From positions 1 through 37,625 of the forward strand of contig JAQXJX010000013.1 of assembly GCA_029009155.1 (NCBI GenBank): a stretch of 37,625 bases of DNA. The letters run 5' to 3'. Both the position numbers and the translations under genes were made by a program. The notes beneath the pieces are model-generated. The model ran no database searches. It saw only the letters and a list, made by a program, of their open reading frames with translations, and was not told where the DNA came from. How positions within the stretch are numbered: position 1 is the stretch's first letter; the number at the start of each line of letters is the position of its first letter. Positions 13,893-37,624 of the stretch are shown one piece after another. This DNA comes from Mycoplasmataceae bacterium (GTDB lineage: Bacteria > Bacillota_I > Bacilli_A > Mycoplasmatales > Mycoplasmoidaceae).

Positions 13893-16800
13893 TTATTTCT
13901 TGCTGTTAGCTTTTAATTCTTTTTGTTTTCTAATTCTTACTTTATATGTTAATCAGAAAATAAACATTGCAACTAGAATTGAAGGAATAGCAACTGAAAT
14001 TGATAAGATAACTCAGAATGTAGCATCAGCTGATTGAGGTTTCATTGTAGCAACAACATCAATTTGCATAACTCTTGTAATATCAGATAATTTATTACCT
14101 TCAGGTGTAGTAGATTTAGTTTGAGCTTTAATTCTGAATTGATAAGAACCTAAAACTTGTGTTTCTTGGTTAGCTTCACAATAGATTACTCCAGTAGCTG
14201 GATCAATTTTTAATCATGGAGCTTTATTTTTATCAAATTCTTTATCTTGTTGAGCATCTCACAATTCTCAAGTACATTCTTTTGAATCACCACCATCAGT
14301 TTTTACAATTACTCGTTTATTTTCTTGATCATTAATTGATCTACTCTTTCCAATAACTCATTTTCTATTTTCATAGTCATTATTTGAGTTAGATAAGAAA
14401 TCAAATAATTTAGAATCATCTAAAGTCATTTTAGTTAGATCTTTTGTACCAACATCATCAATATTGATGTTAACGTTTGATTCGAAATAACTATCTTTTG
14501 AGTTAGCAGGAATAATTATTCTACCGTCTTCACATAATTTAGGATTTCATTGATATCCCATCTTAGGAGCAGTTTCACCATTGAAAATAATAGTAGAGAA
14601 TTCAGTATCTGCAAACGCATGGTCATTAATGAATTTTAATGATGCAGGGAATGTAAGAGTAGCTTTTGTATGTGTAGTTCCTTCAGTATGACATCCACCA
14701 CATCCATTAAATGCACTAGCACCTATCATTTCTAACCCTTCAGAAAGTGAAATGTTTCCTGTAATATTAGTACATCCAGCAAAAGCTTCATCACCAATGT
14801 ATTTTAAGTTTAATGGAGCTGTACCTGAAGTATTAAATGTTCCTGTAAAGCCAGTACATCCTTTAAATGCTTGTACACCAACTGTTTCAAGGAATTCAGG
14901 TAAATTTAATTCTCCTTTAAGACTAGTACATCCGGCAAAAGCTTCATCATCAATTAAAGTTACTTTTCTTGGTAAACTTGTTATTCCTTGTTCATCATTA
15001 CTGCCTAAACTTGAACAGTTTAAGAAAGTACCTTTTTCAATTCTTGTTAAATTAGAAAGATCAGAGTTAGTAAAATTTAAACTACCATTTAATGAAGAAC
15101 AATTTTTAAATGCATATTCACCAATTAAAGTTACATTGCTTCCAATGTCTATACTTCCAGTTACTTGACTACATCCATCAAATGCATGTGCACCAATTTT
15201 AGTTAAACTTTCAGGTAATTTTAATATTCCACCCAAACCAGTACATGAAGCAAAAGCAGAATCACCAATTATTTCTAAAGCAGGTTGTTTACCTGGGTCT
15301 ATAACGAATGAAAAACCATATAAAGAAGTACAGTTTTCAAAAGCAGAATCACCAATGTATTTTAAATCATTATCAAATGAAATACTACCAGTGAATGTTT
15401 TAATATCTTTAAATGCTCCACCAGCAATACCTACAGTGTTATTACGTAATGTAAAGCCTGCATTTCCTACATTATTAGTGATTTTACCTAAACATCATTG
15501 AGCATATTGACTTTGTTCAAAACTTGTACCGTTTGAATATAAAATTCCATTCTTACAATATGTAGAATTATTTAATCCATTACATCCAAAGAAAGGTAAA
15601 ACACCAACTTCTTTTAATGTATATGGTAAGTTTACATAACCTGTAATAGTTGAACAACTTTGGAAGGCATATGAACCTAAAGTTTCAAGTTTGTTACCAA
15701 AAGCTAAAACGTTACTTGTTCCTGCTTGTTTTAATGCTGTACATCCACTGAAAGCATAGTTGTCAATAACTTTAATTTCTCCAGCTTCTGCTAATGAGAA
15801 ATTAGCAAGTGCTGTGGAATTCATAAATGCTCCACCAGCAATACCATAAATTGGAATTAAATTTCCTTCTGTTGAATTTGGGTGTTTGATTACAACATCA
15901 CCAGTTAAAGTGGCACCACACATACCAATACATCATGCATTGTATGCACTTGGGTTAGTTTCAGAAATTGATGAATATAAAACACCTTGAGTTGTTTTAC
16001 CTTCTAGTAAAGTACATCCTTTAAAAGCTAAGTCTTTAATTCTTGTTACAGAATTAGGGATAAATACATTACCTTTAAGTTTTGAACAGTTTTCAAATGC
16101 TTTTTCTGATATTGTTTTAAGTCCACTTGGGAAGTATAGATCAGTTCCTGTTGAATTACTTGTAACAGTTACTAATGATGTACAGCTAAGGAAAGCACTT
16201 TTTCCAATAGTTTCTAATTTATTAGGAAGAATAACTTTTGTAATCTTACTACATCCACTAAAAGCAGAATCACCAATTTTTGTAATTTTAGTTGTAGGAG
16301 CACCTGAATCAAAACATGCAAGATCAATTTCTCCAGTAAGTCCTGAGCAGTTATAGAAAGCTTCATTACTAATTTCAGTTAACTTTGAGCTAGTAATTTT
16401 TAATGAAGTAAGTCCTGAGCAGTTATAGAAAGCTGATTCTCCAATTTTTTCAATATCTGGTAATGATAATTGAGATGTAGCAGCAGTACAGCCATAAAAA
16501 GCACGTTTACCAATTTCTTTTGCGTTATTTAAATCAAGACCACGAATTCTGTTACATCCTTCAAAAGCTGAATCACCAATTTTGCTTGCACCAATTTGAA
16601 TATCACCAGCTAAATTTGTACAACTATAGAAAGCTTGTTTACCAATTAGATCTAATTTATCTGGTAATGTTAATGCTGTAATTTTTGTTGATTTAAAAGC
16701 ATAGTCACCAATAAGTGAAACTTTTGAACTACCTAAAGCAATTGTACCTGTTAAATTTGTACATTGATAAAATGCATGAGTACCAATAGATTTTAAAGTT

Positions 16801-17306
16801 TTAGGAAGAGTAACTGAAGTAATTCCAGTACATCCATAGAAAGCACCACCACCAATTGATGTAAGACCTTCTGGTAATGAAATTGCACCAGAAATTACAG
16901 TATTATTAGCAAAAGCAGAATCACCAATACCTAATAATTTATAAGATTTTCCAGCTAAAACAACTTCACTGTTGAATGAAATTGTAGAACCTGTAACATT
17001 TTCTGATCCAGTAATGATAACATAACTCTTTTCAGCTGGATCACCGTCTTTTTTATATTGTAAAGTTTGGTATCTAACTGAACCACCAATGTTTGTTCCA
17101 CTAACAAATTGTGAAAATACATCAATACCATCACCATTTGAAACTGAAGAAGTTAATTTAAATGTATCAATATCTGTATCTAATGATGAAGTTGCTACAT
17201 TATCACGATTAAAATTTGCTGAGTGCGAAATTGAATATATTGTACCGAATGTTGCACTTAATGTTGTTAAAGAACCTAATAATAATTTAATTTTTTTGTT
17301 TTTCAT
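13893..17306 (-). CDS. BspA-like leucine-rich-repeat surface protein 1 (1137 aa)
   Basis: Large surface protein of the LRR_5 / TpLRR (BspA-like) type. Signal peptide at 1-30 (MKNKKIKLLLGSL, no lipobox Cys), then about 28 repeat units of roughly 23 residues with the pattern L-P-x-x-L-x-x-IG-x-x-AF-x-x-C. They fall in three blocks of 13, 4 and 11 units separated by two WC(I/L)G...GIAGGAF modules near residues 460-490 and 605-640. After a Cys-less last unit comes a cap (FNGETAPKMG), a cadherin/Ig-like domain (WLKIDPATGVIY, GSYQFRIKAQT), one membrane helix and a basic tail. Start chosen by identity with the paralogue and equal spacing to the leader hairpin; ATG at 17315, nearer GGGAG, is an alternative. 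TGA Trp throughout. Likely host or microbe adhesion. Confidence 0.9.
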
Positions 17307-17336
17307 AAATCTCATTCTCTCTCCCATTTTTTGAGA

Positions 17337-17364
17337 AAACCATTACAAATATATAGAATGGTTT
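17337..17364 (-). promoter_or_regulatory. Leader hairpin of BspA-like gene 1
   Basis: Perfect 8-bp inverted repeat (minus strand AAACCATT / AATGGTTT) with a 12-base loop, CTATATATTTGT. It lies 13 bases after the -10 box and exactly 30 bases before ATG 17306, hence in the 5' leader of the transcript. A matching hairpin precedes BspA-like gene 2. Confidence 0.6.
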
Positions 17365-17377
17365 ACTATCAAAGTTA

Positions 17378-17383
17378 ATTATA
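17378..17383 (-). promoter_or_regulatory. -10 box of BspA-like gene 1
   Basis: The minus strand reads ATATACTATAAT followed by TAACTTTGATAGTAAA. BspA-like gene 2 has the same ATATACTATAAT with a similar downstream stretch. No clear -35. Confidence 0.65.
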
Positions 17384-17435
17384 GTATATATTTATATGTA
17401 AATATAATGTTTTTATTGATTAAAACACTTTTTAG

Positions 17436-17462
17436 TAAAAAAACTTGCAAATTTTGGCAAGT
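17436..17462 (-). terminator. Terminator of BspA-like gene 2
   Basis: Stem ACTTGC / GCAAGT with an 8-base loop, followed by a run of seven T on the minus strand. It lies 16 bases after the stop at 17479 and separates genes 2 and 1 into different transcripts. Confidence 0.75.
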
Positions 17463-17478
17463 CTTTTTTTAGCGCTTT

Positions 17479-20400
17479 TTATTTCTTAGCAGCTTTAAGA
17501 TTTTTATTTTTCTTAATGTGGTGAATAATTCATAAAGCTACAGAAATAGCAACCATAGTTGGAACTGTTGTACTTACAGGTAATACAATTCACATTCATC
17601 AATCATTAGTACTTGTTTTATCTGTAATTTTTAATGTTACACGGTTAACATCAGAATCAGAAACAGCATAATGAGCATGTTGAGGATCTGGAGTTTGTAC
17701 TTTAATATCTATTGTTCATTCACCTTCATAAGAATCATCAGTTCAAGAAATTAAACCAGTTGCTGGATCAATTTGGATGAAACTTGGGATGTCATTACGG
17801 TTATTAATTGCTCATTCTAGATTATTGTATGCACCATCATTTAGTGTAACAGTAAATGTTGATGGGTTTAATGATCCTGCAGCTCCTGCATCACCTGTTT
17901 GTTTTCTTAATTCACGAGGAATATCATTAATCTTAATTTCAGTTACTTCAATGTAAATAAGGTTGTAATTCTTTTCATTAATTGGAGCTTCTGAAGCAAA
18001 GAAATCATATTGTGTTTTAAATGGTACACTAATCTTTCCATCATTTCCAATTGAAGGTGCTCAATTAGTACCTAAACATGGAACTGTAGGAGTTTGGAAA
18101 ATAATTTTTTCCATTGTAACACCTGCAAAGGCATTAGGACCAACTTCTCTTACAGTTGATGGGAATTCTAATACACTGTTTTGTTGTTTACTTGCACAAC
18201 CAGCAAAAGCTTCTTCACCTATATATTGAACATGTTTAGGGATTGTAATGAATCTGAAATTTTCACATCCATAGAAAGCACGGTCATCAATTACAGATAT
18301 ATTTTTGCTTACTGCTTCTTGTAAATCAAATGTTTCTAATGAAGTACAATAACTAAATGCTCCAACACCAATTGTTGTAAGATTATCACGTTGTAAAGCT
18401 ACACGTTGTACATTAGTACATCCTCTAAATGCTTCAGGTTTAATTTCAGTAATAGTTGCAAATAAATCAATAGTACCTCCAATTGATTTACAATCATAGA
18501 AAGCTTGTCTTCCAATGTAAGATACTGTTTGGTCTAAATATAAACCAGATCATTGTAATTTTTCACAACCAAAGAAAGCTAAATCACCAATTGATCTAAC
18601 ACCACTGTGAATAATACTTGTTGATAAAGTACTTTCAGTTTTTAAATTCTTGCAACCTTTAAATGTGTTCTCTTTAATTTCAGTAATATTTTTTGGAAGA
18701 CCAGTGAAATAAGAGTTATCCATTTTACATAATGATTCACAATCTTCAAATGCTGATGCACCTAAGTAAGTTAAAGTCTCAGGTAATTGTAAGCTATTAT
18801 TAAAACCTGTACAGCCTTTAAAAGCACTATCACCAATATAAGTTAACATACATTGTTGAGATGCAGCCAAATCAATTGCACCTGTAAGACTTGAGCAATT
18901 TTCAAAAGCACCACCAGCGATACCATAAACATTATCTTTTAATGATCAATCAGTACCTGTAATACATGCAGCTGTTTTGCATCCTAAACATCATTGGTTA
19001 TTCTTATCATTAGTTTCAGAAGTATATATAGGGTTACTAGAAGGAAGAGGATCTGTAAAGCCACAATCAATGAAAGCTTGGTAAAGAATTGATTTAACTG
19101 ATTTAGGAATGTTTATATTATTACTTGCTGTTAAACCAGTACATCCTTTAAAAGCATGTTTACCAATTGTTACAAGATCAGATGGGAATGATACAGCTGA
19201 TATTCCAGTACATTCTAAGAAAGCACCACCAGCAATACCATAAGTTCCTTCTTCGATTTGAATTGATCCAGTTACTTTAGTAGCATTAATTGTTCCTAAA
19301 CATCATTGATTATATTGTTCATTTGCTGGAGAAGTATAGAAAACTGTAGAAGAGATATCACTTCTTTCAAATCCTGTGTTAAAGAAAGCTTGGCTACCAA
19401 TTTCAGTAACAGATTTAGGAATTTGTAATACTCTTATTGTACCTGCTGAACCTAATGCTGTACAACCTTTAAAAGCATTGTCACCGATTTTTTCTAGTGT
19501 ATTAGGTAAAATTAAATCTTTTGATAATGCTGTACAGCCTTCAAATGCTGAATCACCAATTGTTTTAACACTATTACCTAATTGAAGTTGTTTAATTTTT
19601 GTACAACCTTTAAAAGCATAGTTACCGATTGTTTTAACATCATTAGGGATATATAAAATTTCATTTTCAATAGCATTACAGTCAAGGAAGGCGTTTTCAC
19701 CAATAGTTTTTAAATTTTTAGAAAGAACCACGCTTGTAAATTTATTACCTTTAAAAGCATAAGTATCAATAGTTTCAACTGTACTTGGTAATCTAAGAAG
19801 TCCTTTAAATCCACAACTTGCAAATGTTGAATTGCTAATTGTTTTAAAGTTATCATTTGCTGGTAAAATTAAATCTTCATTTAGTCCTGAACAATTATTA
19901 AATGCATATTCGCCAATAAATTCAATAGTTGATGGTAAATGTAATCCACCATTTAATTTAGTACAACCATCAAAGGCATTTTTACCAATAAATTTAAGAG
20001 TTTCGTGAATATTTGTATTAAAATCAATTTTTGTATTTAATGCACTACAAGCTTTGAATGCTTTATCACCAATATATTTTAATGATGAAGGTAAAGATAA
20101 AGCTGCAGTATCACCAGATGTTAAACCAGTACAGCCTTCAAATGCAGAATCACCAATAATAGATAAATTTGTTTCTTTTACGTTATCACTAGCATTTTCA
20201 AAAACAAGTGATGTTAAAGCTTTACAATCCTTAAATGCACTACCACCAATTGATTTAATAGATGCTGGAATAGTAATTTTTCCTTTTAAATTAGTACTGC
20301 TGGCAAATGCATTACCACAAATTGCTACTAATTCATAAGTTGTTTCATCAATTACTACTTCATTTTTAAAAATAGGATCAGTTGCAGATGGGTTATTTCC

Positions 20401-20727
20401 TGTACCATTACTTGTTTGAACAATACGGCAAACATTTTTACCTTCAATAGTTGCTCTTTGAATTCTCACTATACCTTGAACTGCTGCTGAGCTACTAATT
20501 AAATAGTTTGCATCAATATTTAGTGTAGAAAAATTTACTTGTTCTTCTCACAATTCATTAGCAATATCATTATTTAAATAATAGCTATTTGTTTCGTTTT
20601 GACTTTCAATAGCATATGATGTATTATTTCTTGAAGCGTTAGCACCAATAAATGAAAATAATGTACCAAAAGTTGTACCTAAAGTTATTAAACAAGATGA
20701 TAATAATTTAATTTTTTTGTTTTTCAT
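17479..20727 (-). CDS. BspA-like leucine-rich-repeat surface protein 2 (1082 aa)
   Basis: Paralogue of the protein at 13893-17306. Signal peptide MKNKKIKLLSSCL, then 27 LRR_5-type units in blocks of 13, 3 and 11. The first unit (NAFASS) and the last (NAFAGV) lack the usual Cys, as capping units do. The two block separators read FYTSPANEQYNQWCLG and IYTSETNDKNNQWCLG, each followed by YGIAGGAF. Then a cap (TPTVPCLGTNW), a cadherin/Ig-like domain (FIQIDPATGLISWTD, EGEWTIDIKVQT), one C-terminal membrane helix and tail KKNKNLKAAKK. TGA encodes most Trp. Own promoter, leader hairpin and terminator. Role in adhesion is inferred from the family; BspA of Tannerella binds host proteins. Confidence 0.9.
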
Positions 20728-20757
20728 AAACTCTTTTTTCTCTTCCTTTAAATTTTC

Positions 20758-20789
20758 AAGTCACTATACATAAATCTAAATAATGACTT
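20758..20789 (-). promoter_or_regulatory. Leader hairpin of BspA-like gene 2
   Basis: A 10-bp stem with one G-U pair (minus strand AAGTCATTAT / ATAGTGACTT) and a 12-base loop TTAGATTTATGT. It ends exactly 30 bases before ATG 20727, the same distance as in gene 1. Stem sequences of the two genes differ, but the pairing and loop length are kept. Confidence 0.6.
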
Positions 20790-20804
20790 TACTATTCAAA
20801 ATGT

Positions 20805-20810
20805 ATTATA
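20805..20810 (-). promoter_or_regulatory. -10 box of BspA-like gene 2
   Basis: The minus strand reads ATATACTATAAT then ACATTTTGAATAGTAAA, closely matching the promoter of gene 1. The leader hairpin begins 15 bases downstream. Confidence 0.65.
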
Positions 20811-20874
20811 GTATATATTATTTATTATTTCTTAGTGTTTTCGTTAAAACTTTATGTTTTTTTTAAAAAAATAA

Positions 20875-23800
20875 CTACTTTTGCGATTTTTTCTTATTTT
20901 TAATCTTGCTAATGATTAAAAGTGAAATAGCTATAGCTATTACTGTAGGAATACTAGTAGCTAATGGTAATAAAACCATTGATCATTTAAAGCTATTATT
21001 ATTTTTTTTATTAATAAAGTTAATAGTTATACTTTCACTTGACACACAATTTCATTCTTCTGGATGTAAAAGTGAAGATGCTCTAATCTTAAAACTATAA
21101 GTTCCTTCAGTTGCTTTATCGGATCATTCAATTAAACCATTACTATTAACTGACAATCAATCGGGAAGAGGATTATTATCAATAGATAATAACTCTCATT
21201 TAACTCTTTCATCAGCACCTGGATTTACTTCAATTGCAAAATTATGTTCTAATGAACCAGAAACATCACATAATTTGTCATAATTTGTTGAATATATTCA
21301 TTTTTTGATTGAGAAATTAGTGATTGAAATAAATTCAATTTTCTCAATTTTAAAACCAATTCCAGCTTGGAAATAATTTACTTCTGATAAAAATGGAACA
21401 AAAATTCGAGAAAATTCAGTATTTACTAAATTTGGTTGTCAATTTGCTCCAAATAAAGGAGGATTGATAGAAAAAAATTTTATGCTATCAAAGCTATCAT
21501 TACTAAATGCACCTATACCAATTTTAATAACTGATGAACCAATATTCAATCTTCCATTAATTTTTAGACAATTATTAAAAGCATAATCACCAATAAACAA
21601 CAAGTTATTAGCAAAATTTAATCCTATTCCATTATCAAAGTTCGAACAATTGCTAAAAGCATAATCACCAATTTCAATTAAATTATCAGGTAAATTTAAT
21701 TCACAATTAAAGCCAGAGCAATTATCAAATGCATGTTTTCCAATAGTTTGGATAGTATTAGGTAAAACTAATGAATTACATAATCCTATGCAATGATTAA
21801 AAGCATAGTCACCAATTTTAATTAAATTATCAGGTAATACTAAACTTGTTAGGCGATAGCATTCACTAAAAGCATAGTCATTAATTTTTTTAATATCTCC
21901 AGTTAATTCAATTTTACCAGTTAAACTATGGCATTTATTAAATGCATATTTTCCTAGATATTTTAATGTTGATGGTAATGATAAATAATTATATTGAGGT
22001 AAAAATGAACCTAAATTTTCACATTCACTAAAAGCATAGTCACCAATCGATTCAATTTTAGCATCATTAAAATTAATTCCTTCATTTAAGTTTAAACACT
22101 TTTCAAATGCACTTTTTCCTATACTTGTTAAAATACAGTCTTTTTCAAATTCAATTCCACCAGACACATTAGTACAGTTGTAAAAAGCATAGTTTCCTAA
22201 ATAACCAATAGTTTTAGGAATCTTAATTCCTAAACATGAACATGAGGCATTATAAAAAGCTTTATCAGCTATTCCATAAGTTTCATTTTTAAATTCGATT
22301 GATTTACAAGAAAATGATGATGATATGCATCCTAAACACCATAAATTGTAATAAGCACCAGAACTTGTATAAGCAATATTGTTAGTATCACGGCTTAAGT
22401 TTGTATTATAAAAAGCTCATGAACCAATTCTAATCGTACTTTTAGGAATATATACTTGTTTAATTAAGCTACAATCATAGAAGGCTTCGTCACATATAAT
22501 TGTTACGCCCGACTGTTTTATTGGGTCAAACTCTAATGAAATATTGGTTAACTCATTACAACCTTTAAAAGCGCCTGCGGCTATTGCGTATGTTGAACTA
22601 TCAAAAACAAGATTACTTGTTACTTTTGATGAATTAATCATTCCTATACATCATTTATTAAAATTTTTAGCTGATTTTGAATAAAGAATATTATTTTCAT
22701 CTAAATTAAAGCTTGTATTATAAAAAGCTCGATTACCAATATTATTCACACTACTTGGAATGTATAAATCTCCTTTTAATCCTTTGCAATTATAAAAAGC
22801 AAAATCACCAATAGAGACAAGACTATTACCTAAAATTAATTTATTTTGAAATTTTGAACAATTATAAAAAGCTTCTGATCCAATTTCTTTTACACTATTA
22901 GGAATTAATAAATCACTACTTACTAATGAAGAACAATTTTTAAAAGCAGCATTACCAATAGTGGAAAGTTGTTTTGATAATATAAACTCATTATTATTTC
23001 CTCATCCTGTTAATGAGCTACAATTTTCAAATGCAGAATCACCTATACTTGTTATTGAATCATACATAAAAATTTTTTTAGCATTTGAACAATTATAAAA
23101 AGCATAGTCGCCAATTGAAGTAACACTACTTGGAAAATTAATAGCACCATCTAAGCTGGTACATTGATCAAAGGTGTGTGGTTTAATCTGTTTTAGTTTA
23201 TATGGCAAAATTAAAATTGGAATAGAAGAACATTTACTAAAAGCATATGTACCTAAATATTCAACATTAGCTTTGGATAAATCTAATTCTGCACTTATAC
23301 TATTGCAATTATAAAAAGCATAGTCGCCAATGTAAGTTAGATTATTAGTAAAAGTACCATAATTTGGGCCAATTAATAAATTCATTTTTGTATCATTACT
23401 AAAAGCATAGTCACCAATAGTTTTTAATGATTCAGGTAGTTCAATAGACTGATTTAATAAACTGCAATTACTAAAAGCATAGTCGCCAATAGTTTTACAT
23501 CCATTTTTAAACTTAATTCCATTAAGATTGGCACAATTATTGAATGCATAGTCACCAATAGTGTTAATAGATGAGCTAAAAGTAACAATTCCTGTTATAC
23601 CCGTATTATTATCAAAAGCATGAGATCCGATAGCAATTAGTTCATATTCTTCATCACTAATAGTTAATTTTTCTACAAAATTCGGATTTTCACACACAGC
23701 ATCAAAAGAATTAGTGATTCTTAAATATTTTTTATTATTTACTACAAATGCTTCATATTCAATAAAACCAGATGCTGATTCATTTGTTAGCACACGTTCA

Positions 23801-23970
23801 AACAATAATCTACCAGTAAATTCTAATTTTTTATCTGTTGAATTTATACTAGTATTCATTAGTGGAGAAGAATAATTAGCAGATTTACAACAAAAAAACA
23901 AACTACCAAAAGCGGGAATTATGGTAGAAAAACAACCTAACAATATACCAATTCGTTTGTTTTTTCTCAT
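20875..23970 (-). CDS. BspA-like leucine-rich-repeat surface protein 3 (1031 aa)
   Basis: Third and most divergent paralogue. Signal-like N-terminus MRKNKRIGILLGCF with a CC pair near residue 27. It has 27 LRR_5-type units, here very uniform (IGDYAF(S/N/Y)NC), again in blocks of 13, 3 and 11. Separators: ILYSKSAKNFNKWCIG and IAYTSSGAYYNLWCLG, followed by YAIAAGAF and YGIADKAF. After a Cys-less last unit (GAFSND) comes a cap (INPPLFGANW), the cadherin/Ig-like domain (WLSVNSNGLIEWSD, GTYSFKIRASS), one membrane helix and tail KNKKKSQK. Its promoter and leader differ from genes 1 and 2 and it has no leader hairpin, so it may be regulated separately. No obvious terminator follows it. Confidence 0.9.
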
Positions 23971-28330: not shown

Positions 28331-28996
28331 TTATCATTTGCATCGCTTACATTTATCAAAAATTTTTAATAATGATTCATTGTTTGAAATACACTTTTTG
28401 GCATTAACAACAAAATAGTGATAAATATTTACAATTTGAATTACTGATAGATTCATTTTTTGAGCAATTTCCTGATTTTTATATCCAAGCAATTTATATT
28501 GAATCACTTTTTGTAAAAGATTTTGATTTTTAGTCTTAATATGAAATGAAATAAAATCTTTAAAACAATCAGTATCAATTTCTTGGATAGTTTTTTCCAT
28601 AATTGATGGTTTTTCATCTACCAAATAAGATAAATTACCATTATTTGTTTCAATGTTTTGATCCAAAGAATAGGAAGAATCTAAAATTTTATTTCCACTT
28701 GATATTTGTTTTCAACAATAATGAGCAATTAAAGAATGATTAATTGTGTACAAGGATTGAGCATAATTGAAAGATTTTTGTGATAAATCAAATTTTTTAA
28801 TTGCTTTTTCAATTGATAAATATACTAAGCTTCTAATTTCATTAGAAGATAGATCTATTGATGGAAAAGTATTTTTTACATAATATTTTGTTATATTTGT
28901 TAATTTCTCATTATATCGACCAAATAAAATTTCTTTGGCATAATGTAAATTTTCAGTTTTATATAAGTAAATTAATTCATTATCTGTAGTTTGCAT
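28331..28996 (-). CDS. Sigma-70-like factor (alternative sigma factor candidate)
   Basis: 221-aa product. The N-terminal part resembles sigma region 2: DNELIYLYKTENLHYAKEIL, RYNEKL, then SLVYLSIEKAIKKFD. The C-terminal part (about 165-190) has a region-4 helix-turn-helix: YKLLGYKNQEIAQKMNLS, followed by VIQIVNIYHYFV. The layout fits small ECF or SigH-like factors, and mycoplasmas such as M. genitalium have one such alternative sigma (MG428). The frame is joined through a TGA at residue 101 and ends with a TGA Trp before TAA. It has a CKRC tail. Its neighbours prs and truB do not indicate the regulon. A generic HTH protein is the alternative. Confidence 0.6.
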
Positions 28997-29774: not shown

Positions 29775-30788
29775 TTATTTCTTTTTTTCTTGCTTTTTTA
29801 ATACTTTAATTTCTTGATTTGCTACTTGGTTATAAAACATAAAGAAGTTATTTTCTTCTTCATCAAATTTACGGTTAGCCTCATAAATTTGCTCAACCAT
29901 ACCTCTTGGAGTTGATAAAACATTATTGATAGCCACAATAGCAAAAGCACAAGACAAGAAAACAATACCCACAGGAAAAGCAATTAATAAATAAAAGATA
30001 CTTCCACAAGAATCTTGAGCAAAAGAAGGATATCCCATTTTGTCATAAACTAAATTAAAGCAATCAGAATTAAAATTAGTTATTGATCCATAAACAGAAG
30101 CGAAGCGATGTCCAGCAGGTGGGCAATATTTTTCATAATAAATTGATTCAGGTAACTGAGTAAAATTAATTGCTACAGCATAAGAACTATAAATAAAAAG
30201 ATAAATACATAACAAAAATCAAAATCTACTATTATTTATTCGGTTGATTGGGTTACGACAATCATATGGATAATTTACTGAAAAAATTGTAAATAAATCA
30301 AAGATTATCGGACATATTAAATGAAAGCAAAGTGTAGTTGATAATTCAAAGGGGTTAGTATTAAAAGATCTATTTGTAATCGCACTTGGAATAATAACAA
30401 TTCAATACCCAAACATTACTAAATTAATATAAATAGAACATGCTACTATAAAATCTCTACGATTAAATAATTTACTTTTGAAAGCAAATATAAATAATAA
30501 ATAGCAAATAATGATTAATAGATTATTTTGCTCAGTAAAATAGTGGAAAACATCAAATCAAAGTCTTGCAACAAAGCTAGAATAAACTGAAATTTTAGAC
30601 TGATCTTGAGCCATTGGATCAAGAATACTATAAATTTTGATTAAAAAAGCTAATAAACCCACTATTATTCCAGTAATTGCAAATCAGAATGCTTGTTTAC
30701 GAAAATTATGTTTTCTCAAGTCTGAATTACCTGCTAGAATAGAATGATTTTTATCTGATATATTTATCAAATGTAGTGGTGAAATCAT
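29775..30788 (-). CDS. Polytopic membrane protein, possibly DUF1600-like
   Basis: 337-aa integral membrane protein with about six or seven hydrophobic helices. The first follows a polar N-terminus at about 32-55 (FWFAITGIIVGLLAFLIKI). The segment VFHYFTEQNNLLIIICYLL near 90-108 recalls the FT-x-Q-(S/T)-N signature of mycoplasma DUF1600 and related AIG1-like membrane proteins; this link is tentative. A soluble loop with paired Cys (YCPPAGHRF, DCFNL, SCGS) precedes the last helix, and the end is basic (KVLKKQEKKK). Several TGA Trp. It is transcribed away from the TtcA-like gene from overlapping promoters. Function unknown; transport is a guess. Confidence 0.75.
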
Positions 30789-33303: not shown

Positions 33304-33459
33304 ATGTTTTTAACACAGTCAGAATTTGCAAAAGAGCTAGGTGTTTCTATTGCTTCTGTTGCAAGATGGGAAACTAGTGAAAATGAACCTACTATGAAAA
33401 TTAAAAGAAGATTGAATGATTTATTTATTAAATATTCTATTGAAACGGGGGAACATTAA
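33304..33459 (+). CDS. XRE-type helix-turn-helix protein of the restriction island
   Basis: 51-aa DNA-binding protein starting MFLTQSEFAKELGV, with helix-turn-helix residues about 4-22 and RWETSENEPTMKIKRRLNDL after. The family usually starts a few residues earlier (x-L-R-x-K-L-F-L-T-Q); the same frame upstream reads KKLRNKM but is cut off by a TAA at 33283. An ATG at 33279 enters this frame if one A is removed from the A8 run at 33284-33291. The chosen ATG has AAGGA six bases upstream. Its only Trp is TGG. It ends 1 base before hsdR, so it is probably the controller of the restriction genes. Confidence 0.75.
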   Translation: MFLTQSEFAKELGVSIASVARWETSENEPTMKIKRRLNDLFIKYSIETGEH

Positions 33460-33460
33460 T

Positions 33461-37624
<4,164 letters not shown>

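Follow-up and report, generated by a model that had tools for sequence, protein, structure and literature searches.

The tandem LRR_5 genes

The window, meaning the whole stretch of 37,625 nucleotides that was analysed, is contig C13 of a mollicute-type genome (885 kb in 33 contigs) in which TGA is read as tryptophan. Three tandem BspA-like LRR_5 genes lie on its minus strand, between alaS and the gene for class II fructose-bisphosphate aldolase, in a genome with 136 LRR_5 matches. The genes, the start codons used here and the repeat between genes 2 and 1 are as follows.

13893..17327, minus strand: gene 1 (code 4), BspA-like LRR_5 surface protein, signal-like at the N-terminus and with a membrane segment at the C-terminus
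17479..20727, minus strand: gene 2, BspA-like LRR_5 surface protein, 30% identity to gene 1
20875..23970, minus strand: gene 3, BspA-like LRR_5 surface protein, leader without the hairpin described below
17304..17306, minus strand: gene 1 ATG, counterpart of the gene 2 start by homology; further in-frame candidates at 17327 and 17315
20725..20727, minus strand: gene 2 ATG, reference point of the 30-nt spacing
17443..17462: inverted repeat resembling a terminator, in the gap from gene 2 to gene 1, scored on the plus strand, the minus-strand copy also being followed by a T-rich stretch

The terminator-like repeat suggests that gene 1 forms a transcript separate from that of gene 2. Distances in the gene 1 leader are counted from the ATG at 17306, upstream of which both other in-frame ATGs lie; the start codon is uncertain because of these three candidates and of a purine tract, GGGAGAGAGA, which is able to pair with an upstream TCTC (all in the region 17304-17345, minus strand).

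Other features of the window include a divergent sigma-70-like protein (28331-28996, minus strand; TIGR02937, E = 1.4e-4 over residues 24-191, below the cut-off), possibly an alternative sigma factor of the lineage, and a weak, likewise below-cut-off match to a MAGa3780-family membrane protein (29775-30788, minus strand; NF046009, E = 6.7e-8). Type I restriction-modification genes are found at 33341-37346 on the plus strand, an HsdR-like helicase subunit followed by an HsdM-like N6 methylase.

Promoter and hairpin in the leaders of genes 1 and 2

The earlier note had proposed that genes 1 and 2 share a promoter and the stretch downstream of it, and this is borne out: both leaders contain an exact match to ATATACTATAAT, followed by TTTG(A)ATAGTAAA and then by a stem, and the two are homologous (local alignment score of 63 against 28.0, sd 5.0, in shuffles; z = 7.0, 0/300). 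The 12-mer ATATACTATAAT has exactly two copies in the window, and the pattern TATACTATAAT-N(4-9)-TTTG occurs exactly twice genome-wide, both times in these leaders. Mapped mollicute transcripts start with a purine at the 7th or 8th base past TATAAT, the 8th being used if the 7th is a pyrimidine (PMC4245973, PMC5573727). In both leaders the 7th base is T and the 8th is G, and starts are therefore predicted at 17370 and 20797.

17378..17389, minus strand: gene 1 promoter -10 region ATATACTATAAT, exact match, identical to gene 2; TATAAT at 17383-17378
20805..20816, minus strand: gene 2 promoter -10 region ATATACTATAAT, exact match
17370, minus strand: gene 1 transcription start predicted from mollicute rules, G, 8th base after TATAAT; 5' UTR of 64 nt
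20797, minus strand: gene 2 transcription start predicted from mollicute rules, G; 5' UTR of 70 nt
17337..17364, minus strand: gene 1 hairpin AAACCATT-N12-AATGGTTT, 8 bp; isolated hairpin -5.8 kcal/mol
17364-17357, minus strand: gene 1 hairpin, 5' arm AAACCATT
17356-17345, minus strand: gene 1 hairpin, 12-nt loop CTATATATTTGT
17344-17337, minus strand: gene 1 hairpin, 3' arm AATGGTTT
20758..20789, minus strand: gene 2 hairpin AAGTCATTAT-N12-ATAGTGACTT, 10 bp with one G-U; isolated hairpin -8.8 kcal/mol
20789-20780, minus strand: gene 2 hairpin, 5' arm AAGTCATTAT
20779-20768, minus strand: gene 2 hairpin, 12-nt loop TTAGATTTATGT
20767-20758, minus strand: gene 2 hairpin, 3' arm ATAGTGACTT

On the minus strand the leader of gene 1 reads TATACTATAAT-TAACTTTG-ATAGT-AAACCATT-CTATATATTTGT-AATGGTTT-30 nt-ATG and that of gene 2 reads TATACTATAAT-ACATTTTG-AATAGTA-AAGTCATTAT-TTAGATTTATGT-ATAGTGACTT-30 nt-ATG. 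The coordinates thus agree with the hairpin originally described, with its 12-base loop and its end 30 bases before the ATG in both genes; such exact spacing is what homologous leaders would be expected to show. Gene 3, as had also been noted, is without the element: the one strong stem there overlaps the likely -10 of gene 3 itself and therefore lies upstream of or across the promoter.

Comparison of the stem arms by hand confirmed that their letters differ while pairing is full, every pair being formed in both leaders with a single G-U, in gene 2. From gene 1 to gene 2, the 8 core pairs include two double-sided changes (A-U to G-C and C-G to U-A) and one single-sided change (U-A to U-G), and the gene 2 stem has two extra symmetric pairs on the loop side. 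When the registers were slid by 1 to 3 columns no double-sided pair change was seen. The loops agree at 7 of 12 positions, and the predicted fold of each has two inner pairs, the same in both, closing a hexaloop. In the 30 nt beside the stem the two genes differ at about half of the positions.

The stems begin 6 (gene 1) and 8 nt (gene 2) from the predicted 5' ends. Folded from its predicted start, the gene 1 leader is no more stable than its shuffles (z = -0.31, 76/200), and that of gene 2 is slightly more so (z = -1.68, 11/200). The gene 1 leader also has a competing structure, a second, weak UCUC/GAGA stem over the purine tract.

Covariation, chance and the search for further copies

Shared ancestry and chance could account for this: duplication or recombination would have left homologous leaders, and the stem would be a functionless AT-rich hairpin. 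This explanation has a substantial chance of being right, if short of an even one. In so AT-rich a genome such stems are frequent, and a hairpin of this size in a single leader is unremarkable; a comparable one is found in 52 of 201 real leaders (26%) and in 17-39 of 201 (about 13%) in ten shuffled sets. The frequency in shuffled leaders favours chance, as does the lack of excess stability in the predicted 5' UTR of gene 1.

Against a chance origin stand the two double-sided changes with the symmetric extension, and the completeness of the pairing beside a flank that is about 50% diverged. If two substitutions are placed at random in one arm and three in the other, about 1% of the placements leave all 8 pairs canonical, a figure that is weaker once corrected because the case was picked from a 37-kb window; at a per-site divergence of 0.3-0.5, full pairing would be retained by chance in about 1-5% of cases. 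Double-sided changes were reached in 112 of 500 shuffles, a control that cannot be strong with two sequences only. Retained pairing under this divergence appears moderately remarkable, and suggests that the pairing of the hairpin rather than its sequence was kept as genes 1 and 2 diverged. The earlier note had taken the full pairing as the mark of a conserved RNA structure. Such a structure is plausible and is suggested by the two compensatory pairs, the G-U and the symmetric extension (p of about 0.01, uncorrected), all within one sequence pair, the search having given no third homologue; the searched set holds two homologues with two compensatory pairs between them, and not a series of independent homologues with such changes. 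In an AT-rich genome, covariation between two sequences is thin evidence.

A covariance model, the check that had been suggested at the outset, was built from the two leaders, gene 2 being trimmed to the 8-bp core and shortened by one base for alignment. In the 885-kb genome it recovered its two training leaders (77 and 47 bits) and no further copy, the next match scoring 22.5 bits (E of about 1 or more). The 35-36 congeneric genomes gave no third copy either, their top matches scoring 27-28 bits; most of these weak matches seem to fall within coding sequence, and the layout of the leaders is seen in none. An exact-pattern search returned the two leaders and one further match, due to chance, ahead of the gene at 253-1482. 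That no copy was found elsewhere in the genome or in the genus genomes searched is consistent with a functionless hairpin. Searches of the leaders against Rfam, at gathering and relaxed thresholds, gave no match.

Paralogue leaders in the same genome were read from the stretches around LRR genes, and among the LRR_5 gene starts recovered no other paralogue has the hairpin of genes 1 and 2. Other leader pairs are homologous, each pair different from the next and without this hairpin (C2/C25, z = 10.8; gene 3/C27, z = 2.8), which again fits the chance explanation. Leaders are thus copied along with their surface genes, the hairpin belonging to one such pair. Stem-size hairpins occur in 6 of 20 LRR leaders of the genome (2.5 in shuffles) and in none of the 10 TATAAT-containing LRR leaders taken from relatives, so that a general excess of 5' hairpins is not established. 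An N-terminal search with gene 2 recovered paralogues in its own genome; in relatives the listed hits fell almost entirely in the repeat region and none was an orthologous N-terminus, so that this search gave no orthologous leader in which further covariation could be sought. A contig scan found one distant LRR locus.

Two paralogues deserve separate mention. One on contig C1 (L035, minus strand) has a stem of about 10 bp, composed of A and T only, right after TATAAT; its loop shares AGATTT with that of gene 2, but the leader as a whole is not similar in sequence to those of genes 1 and 2 (z = -0.7). The other (L037, contig C2 from 67839) is BspA-like with an in-frame TAA at codon 25, within the signal peptide, and may be a silent copy, a switchable allele or an assembly error.

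Interpretation and comparison with known systems

We tentatively prefer the reading (probability roughly 0.45) that an ancestral promoter and leader were kept in two old tandem paralogues, together with a weakly conserved 5'-proximal hairpin that has a modest mRNA-stabilising role. The promoters and 5' UTRs of genes 1 and 2 would descend from one ancestral leader. The predicted transcripts would open with a tail of 6-8 nt (GATAGT in gene 1, GAATAGTA in gene 2), followed by the 8-10 bp hairpin with its 12-nt loop and a purine-rich 30-nt spacer to the ATG; the hairpin would slow attack on the 5' end by putative RNase J-type enzymes, and the stem would leave the ribosome site open. Long downstream stretches of an mRNA can be stabilised in Bacillus subtilis by a hairpin located at the 5' end or close to it (PMC3997798), and translation in M. 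pneumoniae is reduced by hairpins in the vicinity of the ATG (PMC5573727). Here both stems end 30 nt before the ATG and do not occlude the ribosome-binding site. A stability element is plausible from this position alone. Against it, the single-stranded tail of 6-8 nt may be too long for a 5' exonuclease to be blocked. We infer the start sites, the folding in the cell and any effect on stability, and a stabilising role is preferred by a narrow margin over the absence of any function.

Repressors classically bind at inverted repeats within the initially transcribed region. The element could accordingly be a DNA operator, a dimeric-repressor site whose two half-sites co-evolve: it lies just downstream of the predicted start, and the symmetric changes are also consistent with altered half-sites. 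An operator is nonetheless unlikely, since the half-site sequence differs between the genes (AAACCATT and AAGTCATT), the outer span grows from 28 to 32 bp, a change that would turn the half-sites by about 137 degrees, and the site is not repeated elsewhere in the genome.

A regulated RNA switch for surface-protein expression (an attenuator, a protein- or small-RNA-responsive leader, or a thermometer) is very unlikely. The similar loops (7/12), with the same predicted inner pairs and hexaloop, would suit it, and the weak AU-rich stems could melt. The protein- or RNA-responsive leader of the earlier note is nevertheless unsupported: the leaders have no Rfam match, the other paralogues read are without the element, no T-run follows either stem, and the stem, ending 30 nt before the ATG, leaves the start region free. 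As for a transcription attenuator, AATGGTTT-TCTCAAAA and ATAGTGACTT-GAAAATTT are without an immediate T-run, which makes attenuation unlikely, and both are absent from the terminator scan. No ligand, protein or trans-acting RNA is indicated for the leaders, and we give scant credence to the idea of a lineage-specific leader element in which an RNA-binding protein or small RNA recognises the 12-nt loop, partly shared in sequence, on an exchangeable stem and so coordinates the two adjacent surface antigens apart from the other BspA-like paralogues.

The chance that the repeats are a recombination or phase-variation site around an invertible segment is next to negligible, even though surface-gene families of mollicutes invert at short inverted repeats (e.g. 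PMC3047005): no more than 12 bp lie between the arms, the promoter is outside them, and they could not recombine precisely with each other, because their sequences differ between loci. An invertible promoter element likewise does not fit, the arms being downstream of the -10 and enclosing 12 bp instead of flanking the promoter.

The element is thus most likely an ordinary minor leader hairpin and not a new regulatory system. Paralogous surface genes here inherit promoter and leader together. If the hairpin is functional, BspA-like surface antigens would offer a rare sign of control at the post-transcriptional level, in a mollicute lineage represented here by a draft genome only.

The genes themselves resemble the 26-member BspA-like LRR family of 'Candidatus Mycoplasma girerdii', which is also expanded, of the LRR_5/TpLRR type and in many members anchored in the membrane at the C-terminus (PMC4206474); the text of that paper mentions neither promoters nor inversion, and no description of a leader structure was found in it. 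Like Ureaplasma mba/UU172 and M. agalactiae vpma (PMC3047005, PMC2268961), they are paralogues encoding surface proteins and carry short inverted repeats close to promoters or starts. In contrast to the inversion systems of those organisms, the arms here are 12 bp apart, vary from one locus to the other and leave the promoter outside. Compared with the stabilisers of E. coli ompA and papA and B. subtilis aprE, the stem is weak and AU-rich, with a predicted tail of 6-8 nt and a start known by prediction. The arrangement would otherwise be alike in those leaders (PMC3997798): a short hairpin, here predicted to be near the 5' end, upstream of the ribosome-binding site and apart from it, on a gene for a surface or secreted protein.
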